A stretch of 36,327 nt of DNA from Deltaproteobacteria bacterium (GTDB lineage Bacteria; Myxococcota_C; UBA6777): positions 1 through 36,327 of the forward strand of contig PCBK01000006.1 in the NCBI GenBank assembly GCA_002731275.1. The letters run 5' to 3'. The notes beneath the pieces were generated by a model that saw only the letters and a list, made by a program, of their open reading frames with translations, was not told where the DNA came from and did no database searches. Positions 2,924 to 29,371 of the stretch are shown here, piece by piece. The translations under genes and the position numbers were made by a program. Within the stretch, counting starts at the first letter, position 1. The number at the start of each line of letters is the position of its first letter.

Positions 2924-3006
2924 GCCGAAGTGGTGGAACTGGTAGACACGCTGTCTTGAGGGGGCAGTGGGCCTAGCCCGTGCCGGTTCGAGTCCGGCCT
3001 TCGGCA
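2924..3006 (+). tRNA. tRNA-Leu (anticodon GAG), copy 1
   Basis: The acceptor stem GCCGAAG pairs with CTTCGGC at the 3' end. The anticodon stem CTGTC/GGCAG encloses the loop TTGAGGG, giving anticodon GAG, which reads CUC/CUU leucine codons. A long variable arm (class II) and a GGTTCGAGTCC T-arm are present. The 3' CCA is not encoded. It is identical over all 83 nt to the gene at 26149, and the ten bases before both copies are also the same. Confidence 0.95.
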
Positions 3007-3010
3007 CAAG

Positions 3011-11632: not shown

Positions 11633-12106
11633 TTACTCGGTGGGTTGGGAATCTGTATTGGAGGAGGAGTTTCTTTTGAAGTACTTTTTGAGTTCTTCGA
11701 GTGCGTCGTCGAGTCCGGCACCGGAGGGCATATTTTGGAGCGCTCGATAGACGATGAGGGAAGCGACATATGCTTCGCTTCCGGCGGTCATGACGGTGTC
11801 GTCTACTTTCTTGGAGAGTTGAGAGAGGGAGAGGGCGATAGGTGCAAGGGAGTCGACGAGTTGGAGGTCTTTTTCGAGTTCATCAACTTTGAAGTACCTG
11901 GGGAGGATTTCATCGTTTTGGGATGCGACTTCGATGGATTTTTTGACGAAGCTTTGTGTACGGGCACCCATTTTGGGGAGTTCACGTCGTTCACTGGGTG
12001 TGAGGGCGACGAGGAATGGGAGTTTTTTGTTGATGGTTTCGATAGCGTCGAGGATTTCTTTTTTGACGGTTTCATTGATATTCGCGCTGACTTTGTTTGG
12101 TAGCAT
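11633..12106 (-). CDS. Conserved hypothetical cytoplasmic protein (157 aa)
   Basis: The sequence is helical and soluble, with recognisable stretches: LPFLVALTPSERRELPKMG, then DEILPRYFKVDELEKDL, then LSQLSKKVDDTVMTAGSEAY. I recall this combination from many bacterial proteins annotated as hypothetical; I cannot name a function. The ATG at 12106 has GGAGA eight bases before it. The tail after residue 145 is low in complexity (Ser/Asn/Thr). It lies downstream of the Zorya-like operon on the same strand, but 357 bp separate them, so co-transcription is not implied. Confidence 0.8.
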   Translation of the reverse strand: MLPNKVSANINETVKKEILDAIETINKKLPFLVALTPSERRELPKMGARTQSFVKKSIEVASQNDEILPRYFKVDELEKDLQLVDSLAPIALSLSQLSKKVDDTVMTAGSEAYVASLIVYRALQNMPSGAGLDDALEELKKYFKRNSSSNTDSQPTE

Positions 12107-12463
12107 ATCATCTCTCCGTTGAGATTAAGTGAAAGTGTACAAAACATAACTATGTGGGGACAAACAAGTCCCGTTGCGCCGAATGTGATGAGATCGTATA
12201 CATGATCTGAGGTGTGATGTCCAGAGTCTATTTCTTGAAGGAAGGCAGTTTTGGTAGGGGCTTCTTGTTAAGAGGCAGAAGAAACGTCCTTTTATTTGAA
12301 TTGTGTAGGACGCTTGTGAATCTTTTTGCTGGACATTTTTGTTTCATCAAGCTACTTTTACCTGAAAGTATGTCGTTTGATTTACAAATGCCAGGATGGA
12401 GATTCATGGGGCTGGTTACATTTCAAAGCACACCAAGCAAAAAAACTCAAGAGGTTATAATCG
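12107..12463. other. Intergenic gap downstream of zorC, no zorD
   Basis: No ORF with a credible start or domain is visible on the minus strand, and nothing resembles a helicase or nuclease fragment. A short palindrome GATC...GATC near 12191-12206 is the only structure noted. No good terminator was found after zorC. Confidence 0.6.
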
Positions 12464-13966
12464 TTATTTTCTTTGGGCAAGGGACGCATCTGTTTGGATA
12501 CCAAACTCTTGCAAGAATTGCTTGAAAATGACTTGCCACTCTGGTTCATGGGACAAAACGCGAAGTGTTGGAATTCTCATGATGTCGGAGTCATAGACTT
12601 TCTGTTTGTCTAGCTTGTCTCTATTTTGGTTGAACTCGTGTTCTGTCAAGAATCTTGCGTGGTTGACAGGTCCGACTCCGTACATATATTGCACGATAAA
12701 CAAGGAGCCAATCTGTATGAAGCAAACGTCACTTTCCTTGTGTTGCCTTCTTCCCAAGTACACTCCCAAGCCTGATTCTTTTAATCGCTCTTTTCCATCA
12801 TCTAGATCAGAGATCCATTCATAGGCTTGAGGAGCGAGTAAAAAGCGTACATATTTCATCTGGAGTTTGTAGTCTTTCCAAAAGTTATAACGACTATTTA
12901 AACGCCTTTTTTCACTGTAGTTATTGGTCTCTGTCCGAATGTTGTCCAGGTAGTCGAAATAGCCTGAATCTTTTAGAATATCGCGAAACTTTCTATAGTC
13001 CTTAAATTGAACACTTCCTCCCCAGTTTATAAATCGTTCGATGGCGAGTGGTGAGAACTTTTTCCATGCATGACTTTCGATGGACAGTGGATGTCCTAAA
13101 CGCTTTCGAAGATATTGAAAGAAGTTCTCTTTGCTTCGGTCTAGTTGTTGATCTTCTATTGTCTGTAATATTGTATCGAGAAACTGATACCAGTCACTTT
13201 TGGGTTGCGTTGTCTCAAGAGATTCGATAAGCCAACGAATATACTTCCAATGATTCCAACGTTCTTGTTCAATGAGTTGCTTTGCTGCCAACTCAGCCTC
13301 TTCAATGAGTACCCCTTCGGTTGGGAAGCCGTATCTCCTGAGAGCCTCGTATGGAAAGGGTTTTTTGGGATGATGAAAGCAGTATTCAATAAAGTTATGC
13401 CCTCTAGAAATTCCCTCTTGTTCAAGCGCCCAAAGCAACCGCATCCCTGGACCTTTGCACATTGCTTTGGGAAGTGATTTTAGAAAGGCTCTGCTTTGTT
13501 CGACAAACTGTACTTTTTGTTCTTTTTGCCATGTCGTTTTTGAGGCTCCTGCTTTGATATCAAGACCATGTGTTGTCGTATCCACCTCTTGTTGAAGAAG
13601 TTGTGCGAGTTGGTGTAGCATTAAGTACAGTAATGGTCCGTATCCATCAAGCTTTGCTTGCTTCCAGCAAGCTGTGATGAGTTTATCTCTTTGCTCTTTT
13701 TGGATATTTTCCGAAAGAAGAGCAAACCATAGATCAAGCCAATCAAGCAGCGATAAATTCTGTGTTTCATCACACATTACATATAGAATGAGTGTTTCAA
13801 GGGTTTTTGGCGTTTCTTCTTTCATGTCCTCAAACACAGGAATCGATGTAACCTCGCCTCGGAACCATTTTTTGATCGAACGTTTGAGATCTATATTGAC
13901 TTTTTTGAGAGCCGTCATCTGCTTTTCAACAGGTCTGAAGTGGGGCATTCTGATCATCATTTTCAC
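12464..13966 (-). CDS. zorC: ZorC-like protein with EH_signature domain
   Basis: The 500-residue protein is last in the Zorya-like operon. Its C-terminal part carries features I associate with the EH_signature family of ZorC: RYNFWKDYKLQMKYV near residue 370, a Y-V-R-F-L segment, SLFIVQYMYGVGPVNHARF near 430, and LSHEPEWQVIFKQFLQEFGI at the end. ZorC of Zorya type I is a DNA-associated component that acts with ZorD downstream of the ZorAB motor. The N-terminal half is helical and unassigned. The GTG at 13966 overlaps the zorB stop in a GTGA arrangement; an ATG at 13960 is an alternative. Domain assignment is by eye and should be checked by profile search. Confidence 0.75.
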   Translation of the reverse strand: MKMMIRMPHFRPVEKQMTALKKVNIDLKRSIKKWFRGEVTSIPVFEDMKEETPKTLETLILYVMCDETQNLSLLDWLDLWFALLSENIQKEQRDKLITACWKQAKLDGYGPLLYLMLHQLAQLLQQEVDTTTHGLDIKAGASKTTWQKEQKVQFVEQSRAFLKSLPKAMCKGPGMRLLWALEQEGISRGHNFIEYCFHHPKKPFPYEALRRYGFPTEGVLIEEAELAAKQLIEQERWNHWKYIRWLIESLETTQPKSDWYQFLDTILQTIEDQQLDRSKENFFQYLRKRLGHPLSIESHAWKKFSPLAIERFINWGGSVQFKDYRKFRDILKDSGYFDYLDNIRTETNNYSEKRRLNSRYNFWKDYKLQMKYVRFLLAPQAYEWISDLDDGKERLKESGLGVYLGRRQHKESDVCFIQIGSLFIVQYMYGVGPVNHARFLTEHEFNQNRDKLDKQKVYDSDIMRIPTLRVLSHEPEWQVIFKQFLQEFGIQTDASLAQRK

Positions 13967-14667
13967 TTACTTTCATCTTTGGGGTTTATGGGAGCTGTCT
14001 TTTTCCTCGATTGGAGGACAAGTTTTCCCCAGATGTCCAAAAACTGAAGGTCTCTGAATTGGATCCTAAAGATGACCTTTCTATCAGAAGCTTTTGCTTC
14101 TGACTTGTTCGCGTCAAGCTCACCTCGGCCACTACATAGAAGACGTTTTTTTAGTTCATCTTTGTATGTGTACAAGAGGTCTTCGGACAGCAAGAAGTTT
14201 GTTACACCAAGTGCTCGGTTCAAACTGAGCCTAAGGTTGATATCAAAGCGGCCTGAACGATCGGTATGACCTTCGACGACTATCCTGACGATCTCTTTAC
14301 GAAAGTCTTTTCGAGAAAAAAGGACCTTTGTGTACACTGGAATAAAACGGCTCAGGAAGCTCCGACCTTCATCTGAAAGATTGCTTTTCCCGTAGGCAAA
14401 AAGAATGTTGTCTTTGATTGTGATAGTACCATTTTGTCTATCTACCACGACATCGATATGAGCCCTTTTGAGAGTTTGTTGTAGCTCTGAAAGGAGTTCA
14501 TTACGTGTGCTTTGTTGTTTTTCTTGGCTTTTATACATCTGGTAGAGGACCAGTAGAAGCAAGAGCACGAAGATCAAAAGCAAACTCGCCATCAAATCGC
14601 CAATAGACTGCCAGAAAGGATTCTCCTGACGTTCTTCGAGCGAAAACTGTGTTTGGAAACCTGTCAT
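13963..14667 (-). CDS. zorB: ZorB-like motor subunit (one helix plus OmpA/MotB domain)
   Basis: The 234-residue protein has a single transmembrane segment (about 25-43) preceded by Asp24 in SIGDLMASLLLIF, the position of the ion-binding Asp in MotB and ZorB. A short linker follows, then an OmpA-like peptidoglycan-binding domain with GHTDRSGR (133-140) and NLRLSLNRALGVTNFL. With ZorA it would form an inner-membrane, ion-driven stator-like complex anchored to the cell wall, known to trigger anti-phage defence in Zorya systems. It starts seven bases after zorA ends and overlaps zorC by four bases, so the three are one operon. Confidence 0.9.
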   Translation of the reverse strand: MTGFQTQFSLEERQENPFWQSIGDLMASLLLIFVLLLLLVLYQMYKSQEKQQSTRNELLSELQQTLKRAHIDVVVDRQNGTITIKDNILFAYGKSNLSDEGRSFLSRFIPVYTKVLFSRKDFRKEIVRIVVEGHTDRSGRFDINLRLSLNRALGVTNFLLSEDLLYTYKDELKKRLLCSGRGELDANKSEAKASDRKVIFRIQFRDLQFLDIWGKLVLQSRKKTAPINPKDESK

Positions 14668-14673
14668 TTTCGC

Positions 14674-16695
14674 TTATTCCCTACCCATTGCTGGAGATGT
14701 TGCGCTCAATGTTTTCGCAGTTACGACAAGATCTCCTGTCTTACTTGCGAGGATCCCACATATTTGCCTCAAGTTTTGGAAAATGTCCTCAAGCGAACCG
14801 GTAAGCTCTGTGTTGAACTTTCCTTGATGCTCAGAAATTAGCATGAAGAACTCTTCAATCCACCCTTGTGACTGCATTTTGAATTCCTGAAAATTCTCAC
14901 GGAAAATTGTGGGAAGTTGACGTTCATGTTCTTCGAGAGCTTTGGTTGTTGATGAAATAGAGTGTGTCGCTTTTGAGAGTGCGCGAGCTGTTTCTGAAAG
15001 TTCTTCGAAGGTATTATCCGCGAACAACGGCATCCCCATGACAAACTTATTCAGTCGCTCTATCAAATCCTGCTGCCTTTGTTGGAATGCTTGTTCTTGG
15101 TTGAGTATTCCTTCAGACAAGGATAGTTGCTTATCTGAAATGCTTCCAAACCCTTGGATCACAGAGTGTATATCTTGTGTGGTTTGTTTCATTGTTTGTG
15201 CAAAGAGGTCTGTTACGTCTGCAAGTTCTTTACGTTGTCGCCCTAATGTTTCTTCGAGGGATGTGTTTTGTTTTGTAAAAAATTCGTCCAAAGATTCCGA
15301 GTAGGTTTGACGAAAGCGTGCGAGTTCATGGGTGACTGCTTGGCTCACATTTGTGAGTTCTTCTCCTATTCCTCCAAGGGTTTGTTTGAGTTGTGTATTT
15401 GCGATATTTATCGACTTTGTGGCTTCATGTGCGATCGTTTCGACTTGTGTGTTTAGTCTGTTTGTGACTTCTTCCATATGTGTTTGAGATTCCTTCAAAA
15501 CCTCTCCAAGTTTATGTACAAAAGTGTCAAGGCTCTCGTGTGATTGCTTGACCACAGCTTGCATTTGTGTGACTTGTTCGTTAAGAATTCCACGAAGCGA
15601 ATCTACACTTTGTCTTGTTGACTCCATTGCTTCCCTTGTTGCGTTCATTGCAACGCTATTTTGTTCGAGGGCATTTTGGAGGGGACCAAACAATGTCGTT
15701 TTGAATTGTGTTAAAAGTTCTTCTCCAAAACGATCTTGTTTTTGGAGAAGTTGCTCCATGACCTTTCCATTTTTTTGGTTTTGTGTGACGAGCGGTTGGA
15801 GGCTTGTTGTGATCGCACTACTTACTACCTGCCCAAGGCCTTGCATGTTCATTTGCATCGCTGCACTTTTCATTTCTTCAGCGACTTTGGACATACTTTC
15901 TGCCACGCCTGCCATGTCAGACGATTGCTGTGAGCGTAAGTAGCGTGTTGGGTTGTCAAGTGCGAAGTGTTTATTGAGCAGATCTTTTTGATGTCTGAGT
16001 TGCATCTTTAGAATGCTCTCCATGACTTTTTCGCTCAAGATGAATATGACAGATGCTCCAATCCCAACAAGGGATGTTACAAATGCTGTAGACATGCCAC
16101 CAAGAAGAGGCTTCATTTTTTCTAAAAGGCGTGCTGAATCAAGTCCGTCGAGCGTCCCAAACCCTAGCAATCCCTGGCTGATACCCCAAAATGTCCCCAA
16201 AACACCTAAAGCTGTGAGAAGGGGAGATACAAACGATAGCCCACTCTTCTGATAATGTTCCACATCGGAAAGAGGGTTTCGCTTCAAGATGATTCTGTCC
16301 GTGTCGGTCGTTGGCTTGAAGCGATATTGTCCTTCCTCCTTTAAAATGGCATCTTCAAAAGCTGTATGTTCGAGGAATAGGAAATTCTTTAACCAAGTAA
16401 CTTCTTGTTTTCGTTTTACATATATGTAGCTATGTGCTTTTTGGGAGAGTTCCGAAAGTAATTTGTTCGAAAATCGAATGTCAAAGCTTCTGAACATTGT
16501 TCGTAGCAAAAGTTGTATGCCAAATGCCATAAGTACAAAGTAGATCAAAAACAAAATGCTCTGACTGCTTGCATCTGTTTTTGGGAAGATACCGAGCTTG
16601 TTGATAAATGATTGAATAAATAAGGCCAGTGGGAAACCTAGAACAAGGGATACCGCAAACAAGAACGTTGAGCAAAAGCGAGAGAGAATGTTCAT
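14674..16695 (-). CDS. zorA: ZorA-like MotA/ExbB-type motor subunit with long coiled-coil tail
   Basis: The 673-residue protein has two helices near the N-terminus (about 9-30 and 46-68) and two in a MotA/TolQ/ExbB core. The core reads FVSPLLTALGVLGTFWGISQGLLGF (about 155-180 in two parts) and MSTAFVTSLVGIGASVIFIL (201-220). About 440 further residues are predicted cytoplasmic, Gln/Glu/Thr/Ser-rich and helical, with no Pro for long runs, fitting the long ZorA tail that signals inside the cell. A CAGGAG site stands eight bases before the ATG. zorB follows directly. The core signature and the partners make Zorya the best reading over a plain TolQ/ExbB or flagellar stator. Confidence 0.9.
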   Translation of the reverse strand: MNILSRFCSTFLFAVSLVLGFPLALFIQSFINKLGIFPKTDASSQSILFLIYFVLMAFGIQLLLRTMFRSFDIRFSNKLLSELSQKAHSYIYVKRKQEVTWLKNFLFLEHTAFEDAILKEEGQYRFKPTTDTDRIILKRNPLSDVEHYQKSGLSFVSPLLTALGVLGTFWGISQGLLGFGTLDGLDSARLLEKMKPLLGGMSTAFVTSLVGIGASVIFILSEKVMESILKMQLRHQKDLLNKHFALDNPTRYLRSQQSSDMAGVAESMSKVAEEMKSAAMQMNMQGLGQVVSSAITTSLQPLVTQNQKNGKVMEQLLQKQDRFGEELLTQFKTTLFGPLQNALEQNSVAMNATREAMESTRQSVDSLRGILNEQVTQMQAVVKQSHESLDTFVHKLGEVLKESQTHMEEVTNRLNTQVETIAHEATKSINIANTQLKQTLGGIGEELTNVSQAVTHELARFRQTYSESLDEFFTKQNTSLEETLGRQRKELADVTDLFAQTMKQTTQDIHSVIQGFGSISDKQLSLSEGILNQEQAFQQRQQDLIERLNKFVMGMPLFADNTFEELSETARALSKATHSISSTTKALEEHERQLPTIFRENFQEFKMQSQGWIEEFFMLISEHQGKFNTELTGSLEDIFQNLRQICGILASKTGDLVVTAKTLSATSPAMGRE

Positions 16696-16746
16696 CTATG
16701 ACTCCTGTATTGTAGAAGTTGTACTTTGTATGCGTAAACCAAAAAG

Positions 16747-17082
16747 CTATGAAATGTTGATCTTGTGAGGCAAATCCCACCCAAGGTAAATTCTCTCGGG
16801 GAGATGGCAGGCATCTTGATAGTGCTCCACTCCTTGGGTAAGCCTGATACTGTAAATCTTGCTTTCTCCAAGGAGCTCTGTGTCATGTCTGAGATAGAGC
16901 TTATTTGGGTAGAGAGAGAGTAACTTCTTTTGAAACCGATGTTTCCGTTCCCGAAAGGAGATTGAAAGTCCATTGTTTGCTTGGAAAAGTTCTTGGGCAA
17001 GGTGCCAACCCTGATTGACTCGATGGATGGCAAGGACAAGTTCTTCGTATTCAGGCTTTGAAAACTCTGGTATTTTTTGCAT
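16747..17082 (-). CDS. Unknown 111-aa protein heading the Zorya-like operon
   Basis: A minus-strand ORF ends 51 bp before zorA. Its ATG has AAGGAA eight to nine bases upstream, and the codons look natural. The product is soluble and mixed-charge, with a helical N-terminal half (EYEELVLAIHRVNQGWHLAQEL) and a basic middle part. I recognise no family. Position alone suggests a regulator, a small partner of the motor, or an unrelated gene that shares the promoter. It is not one of the zorA to zorE components that I know. Overlapping frames on the same strand are longer but look like shadows. Confidence 0.6.
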   Translation of the reverse strand: MQKIPEFSKPEYEELVLAIHRVNQGWHLAQELFQANNGLSISFRERKHRFQKKLLSLYPNKLYLRHDTELLGESKIYSIRLTQGVEHYQDACHLPERIYLGWDLPHKINIS

Positions 17083-17487: not shown

Positions 17488-19284
17488 TTATTTCGGTGGG
17501 AACTTCGCCAAAAAGCCGTCGCTCTTGCCGTCACTCTTCAGGGTTCCGCCATCGTAAGAGAGACTACAGCTTCCTGTACTGCCTCCACATGATGTACCCA
17601 CCATAAAGAGATTGTCCGAACCGTCGATCACAAGATCATTCAACAAGTCCTCTTCGCTACTCCCCAACGAGACCGCCCAGACAGGACTTCCCGTTGTGTT
17701 GAACTTCGCAAGGAAGATGTCATAGGTCCCACGAGTATTCAATGTCGTGTTCCCGAAACTGATCGAACAATTACTCACACCGCCACAGAAGTAACCTGCA
17801 ACGTGTACATTCCCTTTACTGTCCAATGCAATCCCAAAACCGTAATCCTCACTCGTGCTACCAAAGGTCTTCGCCCACTTCGCCACACCATTTGCGTCGA
17901 ACTTCGCGATGTACATTTCCTCTTCACCCTTGATCGTCAACGCCGGAAGACTACTGTCCACTGTCGCACTACATGCCGAACCACCAGAACCATAACAAAT
18001 GGAACCTGTCAGGAAGATCTCCCCCGTCGCGTTCACTACGAGGTTACCAGCGTAATCACTCGACGCACTACCAAACGAAATCGCCCACAACGTGTTCCCG
18101 CTGCTGTCCAACTTCGCCACAAATGCGTCTGATTCTCCCTTACTTGTCAATGTCTTGGTGCCAAACGTCGCACCACAACCCGCTGCGCCACTCTCGCAAA
18201 TGTAACCAGAGACGTGGACATTCCCTGTGCCGTCGACGTGAAGACCTGGCGCAAAATCATCTCCCGTACCACCTGCGCTCTTCGCCCACACAACCTTTCC
18301 TGTGTCGTCGAATTTTGCCATGAAGATGTCTTCGCCACCCTTACTTGTCAGTGTGTCCGTCCCGACTGTCGCCGTACAACTCCCTGTCGCGCCATAACAA
18401 AATGAACCGACGAGGTGTGGATTGCCATTCTTATCGAGCATAAGACCACCATCGTAGTCTTCACCTGTTCCACCTATACCCTTAACCCACAAGAATTTTC
18501 CTGTAGCGTCGAGCTTCGTTAAGAACACATCCGCGTCCCCTTTGGAATTTAATGTATATGAACCAAATGTACCCGAACAGCTCGATGTCGCTTGCAGGCA
18601 GATCGCACCAGCGACGAAGACTTCGCCTTTGCTGTTGACTGCGATCGAGCCACCATAATCGTCTCCTGTACCACCTGCGTTCTTCGCCCAGAGGACCTTC
18701 CCTGTGCTGTCCATCTTGAGGATGAAGATGTCTCCACCCCCCTTGGTGTTCAAGAAGGTGCTGTCGAATTTGACCGAGCAATTTCCAGATGAGGAGCCGC
18801 AAATGGAACCTGTTACGTAGATGTTCCCACTGCTGTCATATGCGACGCTGTAAGTGTTGTCGTCATCTGTCCAACCATGACCCTGAACCAATGTTGGTTT
18901 GGGAGGTTGGAATGCCACAAATTCTGGAATGCTACCCTCTGGACCTGATTCGGGAGTGGCTTCTGTTTGGGTTTCAGGGACGTTTTCCGTTTTGGCCTCA
19001 GGGACACTCTCTGTTTTTGTGTCAGGTGTGGGTTCAACACCAGGCTCTTCTTTTGTACCCGCGTCACTCTGGTCTTGTACTGGCTCTGGAGAAGGCTCTG
19101 TTGTTGGCTCTTTTACGGGCTCTTTTGTAGGTTCTTTTGTAGGTTCAGCCGCTGGCTCCGTCGACTTTTCAGTGACAGGTTCAGTGGTGATTTTTTCTTG
19201 TGTGTTTTCTGTTTTTGTAGGGGGTTTGCCACACGCTCCAGCCAGGAATACCATGGCGAGCAGGCTCATAAACAAGATTCGCAT
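17488..19284 (-). CDS. Lipoprotein with seven SBBP-like beta-propeller repeats
   Basis: The 598-residue product has a lipoprotein signal ending at FLAGAC|GKPP, a spacer of about 110 residues made of TEP/KEP/PEP repeats, and seven repeats of about 65 residues. A repeat follows the scheme GGTGDDYG, then a strand with DSKGNVYVTG, then GSFCYGATGSC (two Cys 5-8 residues apart), and then DIFLAKFDSTGKVLWAK. The count fits one seven-bladed propeller of the SBBP type on the cell surface or in the periplasm. The paired Cys in each blade probably form a disulfide. ATG 19284 has AAAGGAG eight bases before it; a longer upstream frame has no signal peptide at its start. Such domains mediate binding; the ligand is unknown. 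Confidence 0.85.
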   Translation of the reverse strand: MRILFMSLLAMVFLAGACGKPPTKTENTQEKITTEPVTEKSTEPAAEPTKEPTKEPVKEPTTEPSPEPVQDQSDAGTKEEPGVEPTPDTKTESVPEAKTENVPETQTEATPESGPEGSIPEFVAFQPPKPTLVQGHGWTDDDNTYSVAYDSSGNIYVTGSICGSSSGNCSVKFDSTFLNTKGGGDIFILKMDSTGKVLWAKNAGGTGDDYGGSIAVNSKGEVFVAGAICLQATSSCSGTFGSYTLNSKGDADVFLTKLDATGKFLWVKGIGGTGEDYDGGLMLDKNGNPHLVGSFCYGATGSCTATVGTDTLTSKGGEDIFMAKFDDTGKVVWAKSAGGTGDDFAPGLHVDGTGNVHVSGYICESGAAGCGATFGTKTLTSKGESDAFVAKLDSSGNTLWAISFGSASSDYAGNLVVNATGEIFLTGSICYGSGGSACSATVDSSLPALTIKGEEEMYIAKFDANGVAKWAKTFGSTSEDYGFGIALDSKGNVHVAGYFCGGVSNCSISFGNTTLNTRGTYDIFLAKFNTTGSPVWAVSLGSSEEDLLNDLVIDGSDNLFMVGTSCGGSTGSCSLSYDGGTLKSDGKSDGFLAKFPPK

Positions 19285-19407
19285 GTTTGTCGCTCCTTTG
19301 ATGCTTTTGTCATGTGCCATACAGCACGAGGTCAACCGCCTAGCTATAACCCTTCTTACATCAGATGTCTACCCAAACTTGATATATGATGACCACGCTT
19401 TTTGTCG

Positions 19408-19775
19408 GGCAAGCTGCTACTTGAGGGGCAGACCGGTCGTCAGGTATGAGGCCAGGTCGCCACCTTGCTGCCTCTCTGTGGGCAAGTTGCCACCGGGATC
19501 AGGGCAAGTTGCCACCGAGAGCAGGGCGTGTTGCCACCGAGAGCAGGGCGTGTTGCCACCGAGAGCAGGGCGAGTTGCCACCGAGAGCAGGGCGAGTTGC
19601 CACCGAGAGCAGGGCGAGTTGCCACCGAGAGCAGGGCGAGTTGCCACTCGCCCTTACGACTGCCGCGCTTCGCTTGGCATAGTGGGTTTGCCACCCACAC
19701 CCGCTTGGGGGACAGCGCCCCCCAAACCCCGCATTCGATGCCTTCGGCGTGGGCTGACGCGCGTTGCTTGTCTGG
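19408..19775 (+). repeat. Multi-hairpin dispersed repeat, copy C (expanded)
   Basis: This copy keeps the GTGGGT/ACCCAC stem (19682-19687 with 19693-19698) and changes the next stem to TTGGGGG/CCCCCAA (19705-19711 with 19719-19725). Its first module has expanded into a 22-bp tandem array. It sits between two divergent genes, the propeller lipoprotein and the orphan at 19885, so it lies on the promoter side of both. Frames across it are repeat translation. Confidence 0.9.
19480..19653 (+). repeat. 22-bp tandem array inside repeat copy C
   Basis: Seven full units of a GGGC-x-x-GTTGCCACCGAGAGCA pattern run from 19480 to 19633. A last, shorter unit (19634-19653) closes as the perfect hairpin GGGCGAGT/ACTCGCCC. 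Units differ mainly at positions 5 and 6 (AA, GT or GA), and the order AA, AA, GT, GT, GA, GA, GA suggests stepwise duplication. Confidence 0.92.
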
Positions 19776-25496: not shown

Positions 25497-25700
25497 CTTG
25501 CCCTTACTTACTGCCGCGCTTCGCTTGGCATTGGCTGCCTTTTTGGGGCGAGTTGCCACTCTTTTTGGGGCGAGTTGCCACTCGCCCTTGCTGAATGCCG
25601 CGCTTCGCTTGGCATTGTGGGTTTGCCACCCACACCCGCCTGGGGTTTTCTCCCCAGACCCCACGATGCGCAAGCATCGTTTGTGTTCCGACTTCGTCGG
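25497..25700 (+). repeat. Multi-hairpin dispersed repeat, copy E
   Basis: Stems are GGGCGAGT/ACTCGCCC (25568-25575 with 25580-25587), GTGGGT/ACCCAC (25617-25622 with 25628-25633), CTGGGG/CCCCAG (25640-25645 with 25652-25657), CGATGC/GCATCG with a GCAA loop (25664-25669 with 25674-25679) and CCGAC/GTCGG (25688-25692 with 25696-25700). The first stem has G and C where copies A and B have A and T, on both arms, so pairing is kept. The last stem is completely replaced but still a hairpin with a TTC loop. Confidence 0.9.
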
Positions 25701-26148: not shown

Positions 26149-26231
26149 GCCGAAGTGGTGGAACTGGTAGACACGCTGTCTTGAGGGGGCAGTGGGCCTA
26201 GCCCGTGCCGGTTCGAGTCCGGCCTTCGGCA
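26149..26231 (+). tRNA. tRNA-Leu (anticodon GAG), copy 2
   Basis: It is identical over 83 nt to the gene at 2924, including the acceptor stem GCCGAAG/CTTCGGC and the loop TTGAGGG. The ten bases before the gene (GAAAACCATC) are also the same, but the promoter and the terminator differ. The two copies point the same way, about 23 kb apart. Confidence 0.95.
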
Positions 26232-26235
26232 CAAA

Positions 26236-26545: not shown

Positions 26546-29371
26546 ATGGGAACGCATCAGGTGACAGCACCAATACGTCAATCATCGTCTCTTTCGGTCA
26601 GCGCTGACTCTGGAGAATTCCTGCTCTATACCAAGCTCTGGATTCCAAATCATATCCAACAGTACGTCCAAAGGCCGGAACTGGTCGCGCGACTCAATGA
26701 AAGTCTACAAGGTAAATGTGCGCTGGTTTGTGCCCCCGCAGGCTTTGGAAAGACGTCTTTGGTGATCGACTGGCTGCAACAGTTGCAGCGGCCTGCGGCT
26801 TGGTTCTCTCTGGATAGCGCCGACAACGAGCCCAAGCGCTTTTTGCGCTACCTCGTCGCCGCTTTGCAGTCGATCTTCCCCGAGGTTGGGGAGACACTCT
26901 TGGTCCACCTCAATGCTCCACAGCTTCCCACCCTCCAGAAACTGTTTACACTACTGCTCCACGACATACAGAAGGTCGATGAAGCCTTTGTCTTGGTACT
27001 GGACGACTGCCATCTCCTGACCCACGCAGCGCTCCAGGAATGCTTGGGCTTTCTGATGGAACATATGCCTCCTCAGATGCACCTGACACTGACCAGTCGC
27101 CATATGCCATTGTTCCCGCTAGGCCGATTGCGGGCCCGTAGAGAGCTTGTCGAATTATCCACAAACGACCTACGCTTCTCAGCAGAGCGGTCCTGCACAC
27201 TCTTTTCCAACCTCCAACTGGATCTGAACCCTCACCAAGCCAAGCTGCTCTGCCAACAAACAGAGGGATGGGTTGCGGGCCTGCACTTGGCCGGTTTGTC
27301 TTTGCAGCAGTCCAACAATCCAGACCAGCTCCTTGAGAGCTTTTCAGGCAGCCACCGATTTATTGCTGACTTTCTCAGCGAAGAGGTGCTCCAGCGTCAA
27401 TCCCCTCAGCTTCAGCAGTTCTTGCTTAAAACATCGATACTCCAGCGTTTTAATGCAGATCTCTGTAACGCAATGCTTGGCATCGACAAGAGTGAGAGCT
27501 TACTAGAGGAGCTGGAGCGCTCACAACTTTTTATCATCCGATTGGATCACAGACAGAACTGGTATCGCTATCATCACCTCTTTCGCGACCTTTTGTTGAG
27601 CCAGCTAAAGAAACGTACAACGCCAGAGGTGCAAGAAGAGCTTCACCGTAGCGCCAGCCAATGGCTTGTGAGTCACCGCTGGATAGATGAAGGCCTCCAA
27701 CATTTACAGGTGATCGAGGATTATGACAAAGCCGCCAAAATGTTGCTATCGTTGGCCGACTCCTGTTTCCAACAAAGATACCTGGAAGAATTTGTTGTCT
27801 GGTTGAAGCGGTTGCCGACACAAGTGCTTCACCGACATCCCAAGCTGATGATGTACGAGCTCCTAGATAAGTTTGATCAAGGCGACAACACAGGGCTCAA
27901 ACGAAACCTCCCCCCGACCATACAGGCCCTCAAGAACAAGCTGACACAGTTAGAGGAGAAATCCCCTGAGCGTCAGGACTACGAGGGCTATATCAAGTTA
28001 TGCCAGGCCTACATCGCACGCAACCAAGGCGATCAAGAGTCAGTGATTCGGCAAACCAAAGAAGCGATGGCAAAGCTATCAGACAAACAACATAGTTTCG
28101 CCTACCACATGATTATTTCGCAGGTCGTGGCACAATTGAAGCGCCACATCAGTGTGGGAAAAGCACTCACAAAGCTCGACGAGCTCTATGCGCAGTGTGT
28201 GTACCAACAAAACCTCTATTTTATGCAGATGGTCACCTGGGTCTCTGCGTATATGAGTCTGAGACGTGGACGTTTGCTTCGCTCTGAAACAATCAACCTA
28301 CGTCTCCTACAGGATGTCAAACAGATACCCTCGTATAAACCCGGGCACAGTGTGGAGTTGGGTATCCATCAGGGCCTGGCTGAAGTCTATTGGGAGCAAT
28401 ACCGGCTGGAAGAAGCAGAGCAAAGAGCTGAACGTAGCCTGAAAATTGCGCAAAAGCACAAACATTTTCGCTCGATGGTCAAAGCCCTGATCTCGCTAGC
28501 CAACATCCTAAACTCTCAGGGCCGACAAGAAGAAGCGTTTCGACTGATCGACAAAACAAAAGCAATGGTCGCTCCCCACACCATCCTTCCAGGACAGATC
28601 CACCGCAGCCTCTTGTCTATCCAGCGTATCATCCTACAACACGGAGCAACGACACAAGTAGAGGAATGGTTCAAGCAAAAGGACATTGGCCTTGAGACGC
28701 CTGTCAACCACACAACGGAACCCCTATTCATCTTAAAGATCCGCCTCTACCTCAAGCAAAGCAAACTCGAAGAAGCAAACAAATTGCTCCACTATCTACT
28801 TGATGAGATGGCAGACAAAGAGATGATAGGGCCCCTAGCAGAGGCACACCTGCTACAGGCCATTGTGTTTCAAAGACAAAAGAAAGAAGAACAAGCCCAA
28901 GAAGAGTTTGGGCTGGCACTCCAGCTTGCCCAACCCGAAAACAACTTGCGCATTTTTGTAGAAGAAAGGGAAGCCACCCGGTCCTTGCTGCAACACTGTA
29001 TTGTACAGCACACAGAAACGAAAGCTTTTGCCCATAAGATCCTCGCTTTGCTCCCAAAGAAAAAAACCACTCCCAAAGCAGCCGCTCCAACACCTCAGTC
29101 GATACCTCCTATCGCCTCTGAGCCCAACATTCATACTCCCTCATGTGTGATCTACGAAGAAGATCCCTACTTCCTCGATCCACTGAGCAAACGAGAGACC
29201 GAGATCATACAACTTGCCAACACAGGTCTAACCAACAAAGAACTCGCCCAAAAACTGTACCTCGCTCACACCACAATCAAAAAACATATGAGCAACATCT
29301 ACAGCAAACTCGGCGTAAAGAACCGAACCAAGGCACTTGTCAGGGCCAAAGAGCTAGGGCTGATACACTGA
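26546..29371 (+). CDS. MalT-type LuxR-family ATP-dependent transcriptional regulator
   Basis: The 941-residue protein has the LAL (large ATP-binding LuxR) layout. A P-loop ATPase of the STAND type carries Walker A APAGFGKTS (63-71) and Walker B FVLVLDDCH (148-156). Helical winged and TPR-like repeats follow (about 370-830). A C-terminal LuxR HTH holds LSKRETEIIQLANTGLTNKELA and TTIKKHMSNIYSKLGVKNRT in the last 65 residues. In MalT the ATPase and the sensor domain turn activation on when an inducer binds. The start, LYTKLWIP soon after the N-terminus, matches MalT-type proteins, but no strong ribosome binding site precedes it. The downstream Cys-rich lipoprotein on the same strand is a possible target. 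Confidence 0.92.
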   Translation: MGTHQVTAPIRQSSSLSVSADSGEFLLYTKLWIPNHIQQYVQRPELVARLNESLQGKCALVCAPAGFGKTSLVIDWLQQLQRPAAWFSLDSADNEPKRFLRYLVAALQSIFPEVGETLLVHLNAPQLPTLQKLFTLLLHDIQKVDEAFVLVLDDCHLLTHAALQECLGFLMEHMPPQMHLTLTSRHMPLFPLGRLRARRELVELSTNDLRFSAERSCTLFSNLQLDLNPHQAKLLCQQTEGWVAGLHLAGLSLQQSNNPDQLLESFSGSHRFIADFLSEEVLQRQSPQLQQFLLKTSILQRFNADLCNAMLGIDKSESLLEELERSQLFIIRLDHRQNWYRYHHLFRDLLLSQLKKRTTPEVQEELHRSASQWLVSHRWIDEGLQHLQVIEDYDKAAKMLLSLADSCFQQRYLEEFVVWLKRLPTQVLHRHPKLMMYELLDKFDQGDNTGLKRNLPPTIQALKNKLTQLEEKSPERQDYEGYIKLCQAYIARNQGDQESVIRQTKEAMAKLSDKQHSFAYHMIISQVVAQLKRHISVGKALTKLDELYAQCVYQQNLYFMQMVTWVSAYMSLRRGRLLRSETINLRLLQDVKQIPSYKPGHSVELGIHQGLAEVYWEQYRLEEAEQRAERSLKIAQKHKHFRSMVKALISLANILNSQGRQEEAFRLIDKTKAMVAPHTILPGQIHRSLLSIQRIILQHGATTQVEEWFKQKDIGLETPVNHTTEPLFILKIRLYLKQSKLEEANKLLHYLLDEMADKEMIGPLAEAHLLQAIVFQRQKKEEQAQEEFGLALQLAQPENNLRIFVEEREATRSLLQHCIVQHTETKAFAHKILALLPKKKTTPKAAAPTPQSIPPIASEPNIHTPSCVIYEEDPYFLDPLSKRETEIIQLANTGLTNKELAQKLYLAHTTIKKHMSNIYSKLGVKNRTKALVRAKELGLIH

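Follow-up and report, generated by a model that had tools for sequence, protein, structure and literature searches.

A four-gene Zorya-like cassette without zorD in a deltaproteobacterial contig and in Cyanobacteria

The cassette and its genes

The DNA considered here, referred to as the window, is the whole stretch of 36,327 nucleotides at positions 1 to 36,327 of contig PCBK01000006.1 (Deltaproteobacteria bacterium, assembly GCA_002731275.1). Its minus strand carries a cassette related to the type I Zorya system. In coding order this consists of a small gene (16747-17082), zorA (14674-16695), zorB (13963-14667) and zorC (12464-13966, with a GTG start), all four being intact open reading frames (ORFs) free of internal stops. 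With type I Zorya (E. coli 8QYD, 8R68 and 8QY7; Shewanella 8VVN) the cassette shares a ZorAB motor with its ion-pathway residues, a ZorC homologue and a compact operon in which zorB and zorC are coupled. It differs in having no zorD nearby and, as its fourth gene, that of a 111-residue protein of unknown family.

ZorA (673 residues) is a MotA/ExbB/TolQ-like motor subunit with a long cytoplasmic tail. It matches the PADLOC model ZorA1 at 8e-56 and aligns with Shewanella ZorA (PDB 8VVN; E 3.5e-18 over residues 34-453), the GTF...TS polar motif being kept. The MotB-like ZorB (234 residues; PADLOC ZorB1, 5e-65) has an OmpA peptidoglycan-binding domain (Pfam OmpA, 2.6e-7) and matches E. coli ZorB (8QYD, E 7e-16), with whose ion-pathway Asp its own Asp24 is aligned. 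As far as the sequence tells, the motor parts of the window are thus intact with respect to Asp24, the ZorA polar residues and the OmpA-type domain. An earlier note, made from the letters of the window alone, had described zorA, zorB and zorC as complete and tightly coupled. The three ORFs and their PADLOC assignments agree with this, as does the 4-bp GTGA overlap of zorB and zorC; the zorA-zorB gap, given there as 7 bp, is in fact 6 bp. The small gene lies 51 bp ahead of zorA, and Shine-Dalgarno-like sequences precede both of these genes. The region had also been said to be richer in A+T than its neighbours. Indeed, its G+C content is 42.0%, as against 47.7-52.0% in tiles of the same size elsewhere on the contig, which fits acquisition from outside.

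The 500-residue ZorC is of the EH-signature type. It matches PADLOC ZorC1 at 6e-15 and canonical ZorC in a profile-profile comparison (96-97%), and its predicted fold is closest to that of solved E. coli ZorC (8R68; Foldseek E 4e-4; Z 10.7 over 330 residues). Although the window protein itself falls short of the Pfam EH_Signature family (PF15611), its relative from Nostoc matches that family at 5e-34. These comparisons identify it as a true, though divergent, ZorC. The core of the earlier note, in which an unknown gene heads ZorA, ZorB and an EH-type ZorC with no zorD or zorE, is upheld. Of the signature pair known from type I ZorC, the histidine is kept (His473 in the column of E. coli H443), while the column of E. 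coli E400 holds Gln426 (codon CAA, 12689-12691), where all other clade members examined have Glu. Hu et al. (2025) reportedly found E400 and H443 to be important for defence. With Gln in place of the signature Glu, the window copy may be impaired. Since the Gln and Glu codons are one base apart, the difference may be a sequencing error in the draft assembly, a change that is tolerated or one that inactivates.

The 111-residue product of the small gene was listed as unknown in the earlier note, and it has kept that status: it has no match in Pfam, NCBIfam or PADLOC, and PHROGs returns a single, non-significant entry. AlphaFold2 predicts, with a mean predicted local distance difference test (pLDDT) score of 89.9, two antiparallel helices forming a hairpin, a three-stranded sheet and a short helix. 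Foldseek finds no structure at E <= 0.001 among solved and viral structures and no convincing match to a known fold; VIA-align reaches a top Z of 5.5, for the most part with simple helical hairpins. That the protein might have split off from ZorC or ZorD was considered and rejected, as profile-profile comparison gives 0.0-0.1%. The conserved residues include N23, W26, K47, Q51, D67, H93, P95 and R97.

Recurrence of the gene set and absence of zorD

The four genes recur together, without zorD, at about 37 distinct loci in Cyanobacteria and in two genera of the small phylum to which the window belongs, as found by the search of other genomes that the earlier note had proposed. A survey of about 85,000 species genomes, pattern-based and not exhaustive, used a profile built from three small-protein sequences and gave 23 loci, nearly all cyanobacterial, 21 of which contain the small gene with zorA, zorB and zorC. 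A second set of loci was picked by a ZorC profile alone, independently of the small protein, from 388 Cyanobacteriia genomes, 24 of which match. All four genes are present at 15 of 20 such loci, the other five being contig ends or broken copies. The small-protein profile matches 22 of the 388 genomes, 21 of which also belong to the 24 with ZorC (Fisher P 1.7e-30). The cassette is present in about 6% of the sampled Cyanobacteriia.

The small gene stays with zorABC even where the gene order differs. It comes first in the window and at most other loci, last after zorC at three (L080-L082) and between zorC and zorA at one (L014); the other genus of the window's phylum has the order zorC, small gene, zorA, zorB, and a Nostoc plasmid carries the cassette in the window's order. 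Homologues of the small protein adjoin zorABC in genome G003 as well as in cyanobacteria. Median ratios of nonsynonymous to synonymous substitution (dN/dS) are 0.26 for the small gene (Nostoc-type homologues), 0.11 for zorB and 0.31 for zorC, which places the three under purifying selection at the codon level. Judged by gene content, the set without ZorD is a class and not a lone relic, and the small protein is shown, at the level of sequence, to be an obligate companion of zorABC, standing as fourth gene in the stead of zorD.

The absence of zorD and zorE on either side of the cassette, as reported in the earlier note, was confirmed. No ZorD SNF2 helicase-nuclease adjoins zorC in the window, and among the larger ORFs of the contig that were scanned, none matches ZorD, the HNH nuclease ZorE that marks type II or ZorF and ZorG that mark type III. 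That homologous loci might always carry zorD or zorE had been raised as an objection; the opposite was found, since ZorD lies beside none of the cassettes. The one hit of the ZorD profile search near a cassette is a helicase core 5.5 kb off in Nostoc sp. WHI. The PADLOC ZorD model was run on the window's genome, two relatives, fifteen cyanobacterial genomes and two control plasmids. Only the two control plasmids yielded ZorD in full length, all other matches being to the SNF2 core. The same holds for a four-sequence ZorD profile in five genomes of the window's phylum, where no full-length ZorD was seen. A ZorD encoded elsewhere in the window's genome or its relatives was rejected on these grounds.

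At four ordinary type I plasmid loci, conversely, a ZorD-type helicase lies directly 3' of zorC in every case (two are PADLOC-confirmed ZorD, one is annotated zorD and matches PDB 8QY7, and one, annotated DEAD/DEAH, aligns with them). The small-protein profile has no match in the two of these loci that were compared with it. In ZorB and ZorC trees the loci bearing the small gene stand apart from those bearing ZorD, and in the tree of the small protein the window's phylum and cyanobacteria are separated by the same deep split; branches are long, and the ZorC tree is a quick one only. ZorC of the cassette is shorter than in type I (about 460-510 against 560-606 residues) and only distantly alike. 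Type II (ZorA, ZorB, ZorE) has the ZorAB motor in common with the cassette, which possesses ZorC and lacks the ZorE HNH nuclease. Type III (ZorA, ZorB, ZorF, ZorG) likewise shares the motor; ZorF (DUF3348) and ZorG (DUF2894) are missing here, and the best ZorA and ZorB models for the window proteins are those of type I. Since PADLOC models already match these ZorA, ZorB and ZorC proteins, the parts were known before; the set of four without ZorD and with its own small protein appears to be undescribed. In the literature searched, from which subscription papers were largely absent, we found no description of a ZorD-less or cyanobacterial Zorya variant of this kind, nor of Zorya in Cyanobacteriia.

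Several observations concern individual cassettes and their surroundings. Viral contigs and phage records gave no match, and among plasmids the Nostoc one was alone in giving one. A conserved fifth gene was rejected, as no flanking family recurs outside the chromosomal context shared by Nostoc. The plasmid cassette of Nostoc HK-01 is followed directly by DISARM-like genes (a DpdE/DrmD-type helicase and a DrmMI-like methyltransferase; L012, 366-8351). This helicase was rejected as a stand-in for ZorD: being DpdE/DrmD-like and adjoining the DrmMI-like methyltransferase, it is part of the neighbouring DISARM-like operon. In Nostoc sp. WHI a 1310-residue ORF with a ZorD-like SNF2 core (L035, 3-3935, plus strand) lies upstream of the cassette at a distance of about 5.5 kb, and similar proteins of 1560-1578 residues are encoded at other places in three further genomes. 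A tandem pair of zorB genes is present in the cassette of Oscillatoria sp. HE19RPO (L015, 12457-14022). One locus (L023/G407) comes from a metagenome-assembled genome (MAG) named 'Tatlockia' and placed by NCBI in Legionellaceae. A search of its class returned the same genomes as the cyanobacterial class, so that the MAG is probably misnamed or misbinned; no canonical ZorC was found in that class.

The effector step and competing explanations

To our knowledge, every described Zorya type has further genes alongside the ZorAB motor, and in types I and II a nuclease is among them. The working model so far has been that the motor recruits a nuclease.

ZorAB is described as sensing envelope disturbance through peptidoglycan binding and recruiting the nuclease (PMC11890865). 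In type I the loss of any component, ZorD included, abolishes protection (PMC11890865). Since ZorABC without ZorD is not protective there, a replacement activity must exist in the ZorD-less form, and the effector step must lie with ZorC, with the small protein or with an enzyme recruited from the host. The small protein, as the constant companion, would be the best candidate for the replacement, whether as an effector, a switch or an adaptor for ZorC.

On balance we consider it probable that the cassette is a ZorD-less form of Zorya, a phage-defence cassette of four genes in which the small protein and ZorC together replace ZorD as effector module. A phage disturbing the envelope would cause ZorB to grip peptidoglycan, ions would flow and ZorA would turn; the cytoplasmic tail of ZorA would then recruit ZorC, as in type I. 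The small, presumably cytosolic protein and ZorC would act in the stead of ZorD. The small protein might switch on an activity of ZorC that damages or blocks DNA, or it might hand phage DNA bound by ZorC to a housekeeping nuclease. A more specific proposal, which can be held only tentatively, is that the cassette represents a fourth kind of Zorya whose motor drives an effector that is neither helicase nor HNH nuclease. The 111-residue protein would then itself be the effector or the activator of ZorC, with no known fold or family for that role. Several points weigh against replacement by the small protein and ZorC. In canonical Zorya I the ZorABC proteins fail to protect when ZorD is missing (PMC11890865), the small protein shows neither recognisable catalytic residues nor a known fold, the window copy of ZorC carries Gln426, and some copies of the cassette are broken, namely several in cyanobacteria and that of genome G001.

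Three possibilities had been put forward in the earlier note: a minimal variant needing no more than ZorC and the small protein, an effector encoded elsewhere, or a lost effector. In the last case the cassette would be an ordinary type I Zorya decaying after the loss of zorD. This would account for E426Q in the window, for the broken zorA genes of several cyanobacteria and for the G001 copy (L004, G001:C88, 6316-6764), which has an intact zorC but lacks zorA and retains only the first third of the small gene, joined to the end of zorB. However, a set that recurs without ZorD across many genera of at least two phyla cannot be explained by a lost effector. Purifying selection on the small gene, zorB and zorC speaks against decay as well, and so does the additional companion gene, which is present in no ZorD-bearing locus scanned. 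We regard decay after loss of zorD as very improbable, and for the family as a whole it is largely refuted. The minimal variant is the best supported of the three, given the roughly 37 loci, the constant companion and the purifying selection. As to an effector elsewhere, a full-length ZorD was not encountered in the genomes searched, though a general host enzyme might serve. The cutting step would then be provided in trans by a general host helicase or nuclease, for instance one of the SNF2 proteins of each genome, which ZorAB and ZorC would recruit by means of the small protein as adaptor. All 20 genomes and records searched have proteins that match the SNF2 helicase core of ZorD, genome G000 has an SNF2 protein of about 1460 residues on another contig, and one plasmid cassette is followed, 424 bp downstream, by a DpdE/DrmD-type helicase. 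Yet the SNF2 signal is generic, since 11 of 14 unrelated control genomes match as well. Moreover, the matches outside the controls span the helicase core only (about positions 510-1104 of the ZorD profiles) and lack the N-terminal part of ZorD, and the cassette is not accompanied by any one helicase family. Supply in trans seems unlikely to us.

Slightly less unlikely, in our estimate, is a purely regulatory or scaffolding role of the small protein, which would keep ZorC off or position it on the ZorA tail, ZorC being the effector. The protein is small, balanced in charge (15 K+R against 13 D+E) and compactly folded, with conserved N23, W26, K47, Q51, D67, H93 and R97, and the E/H pair of ZorC is kept in nearly all other members examined. 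Against ZorC as sole effector, its model, of moderate confidence (pLDDT 68), resembles helical repeats with a small alpha/beta part at the C-terminus and has no recognisable nuclease fold, and canonical ZorC with ZorAB alone does not protect (PMC11890865). A replacement of ZorD by ZorC and the small protein acting together remains the reading that we prefer.

A widespread form that combines the motor with ZorC and has no dedicated nuclease would make the question of coupling directly testable. It asks what ZorC does alone and whether a protein of 111 residues can replace one of more than 1000. Current tools that require ZorD would probably overlook the cassette or label it incomplete.

Neighbouring genes and minor observations in the window

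The surroundings of the cassette are as the earlier note had described them. On the 3' side of zorC follow 357 bp of gene-free DNA without zorD (12107-12463) and then an ORF of 157 residues (11633-12106); upstream lies a propeller lipoprotein with SBBP repeats (17488-19335). The 157-residue ORF has no homologue in four relatives, and an empty site could not be demonstrated.

Two identical tRNA-Leu (GAG) genes (84 of 84 bases) stand 23 kb apart on the plus strand, at 2924-3007 and 26149-26232, with the cassette between them; their flanks differ. A 463-residue ORF on the minus strand (426-1817) matches Cas12f/Cas12u models at about 1e-38 and is, in view of this match, probably a TnpB-type transposon nuclease. 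On the plus strand, a 941-residue ORF (26546-29371) weakly matches a CARF model near its C-terminus (residues 876-923, 4e-7). Tandem 22-bp repeats with a common GGGCGAGTTGCCAC occur at two different places, in 7.6 copies at 19480-19647 and in 2 copies at 25539-25583.
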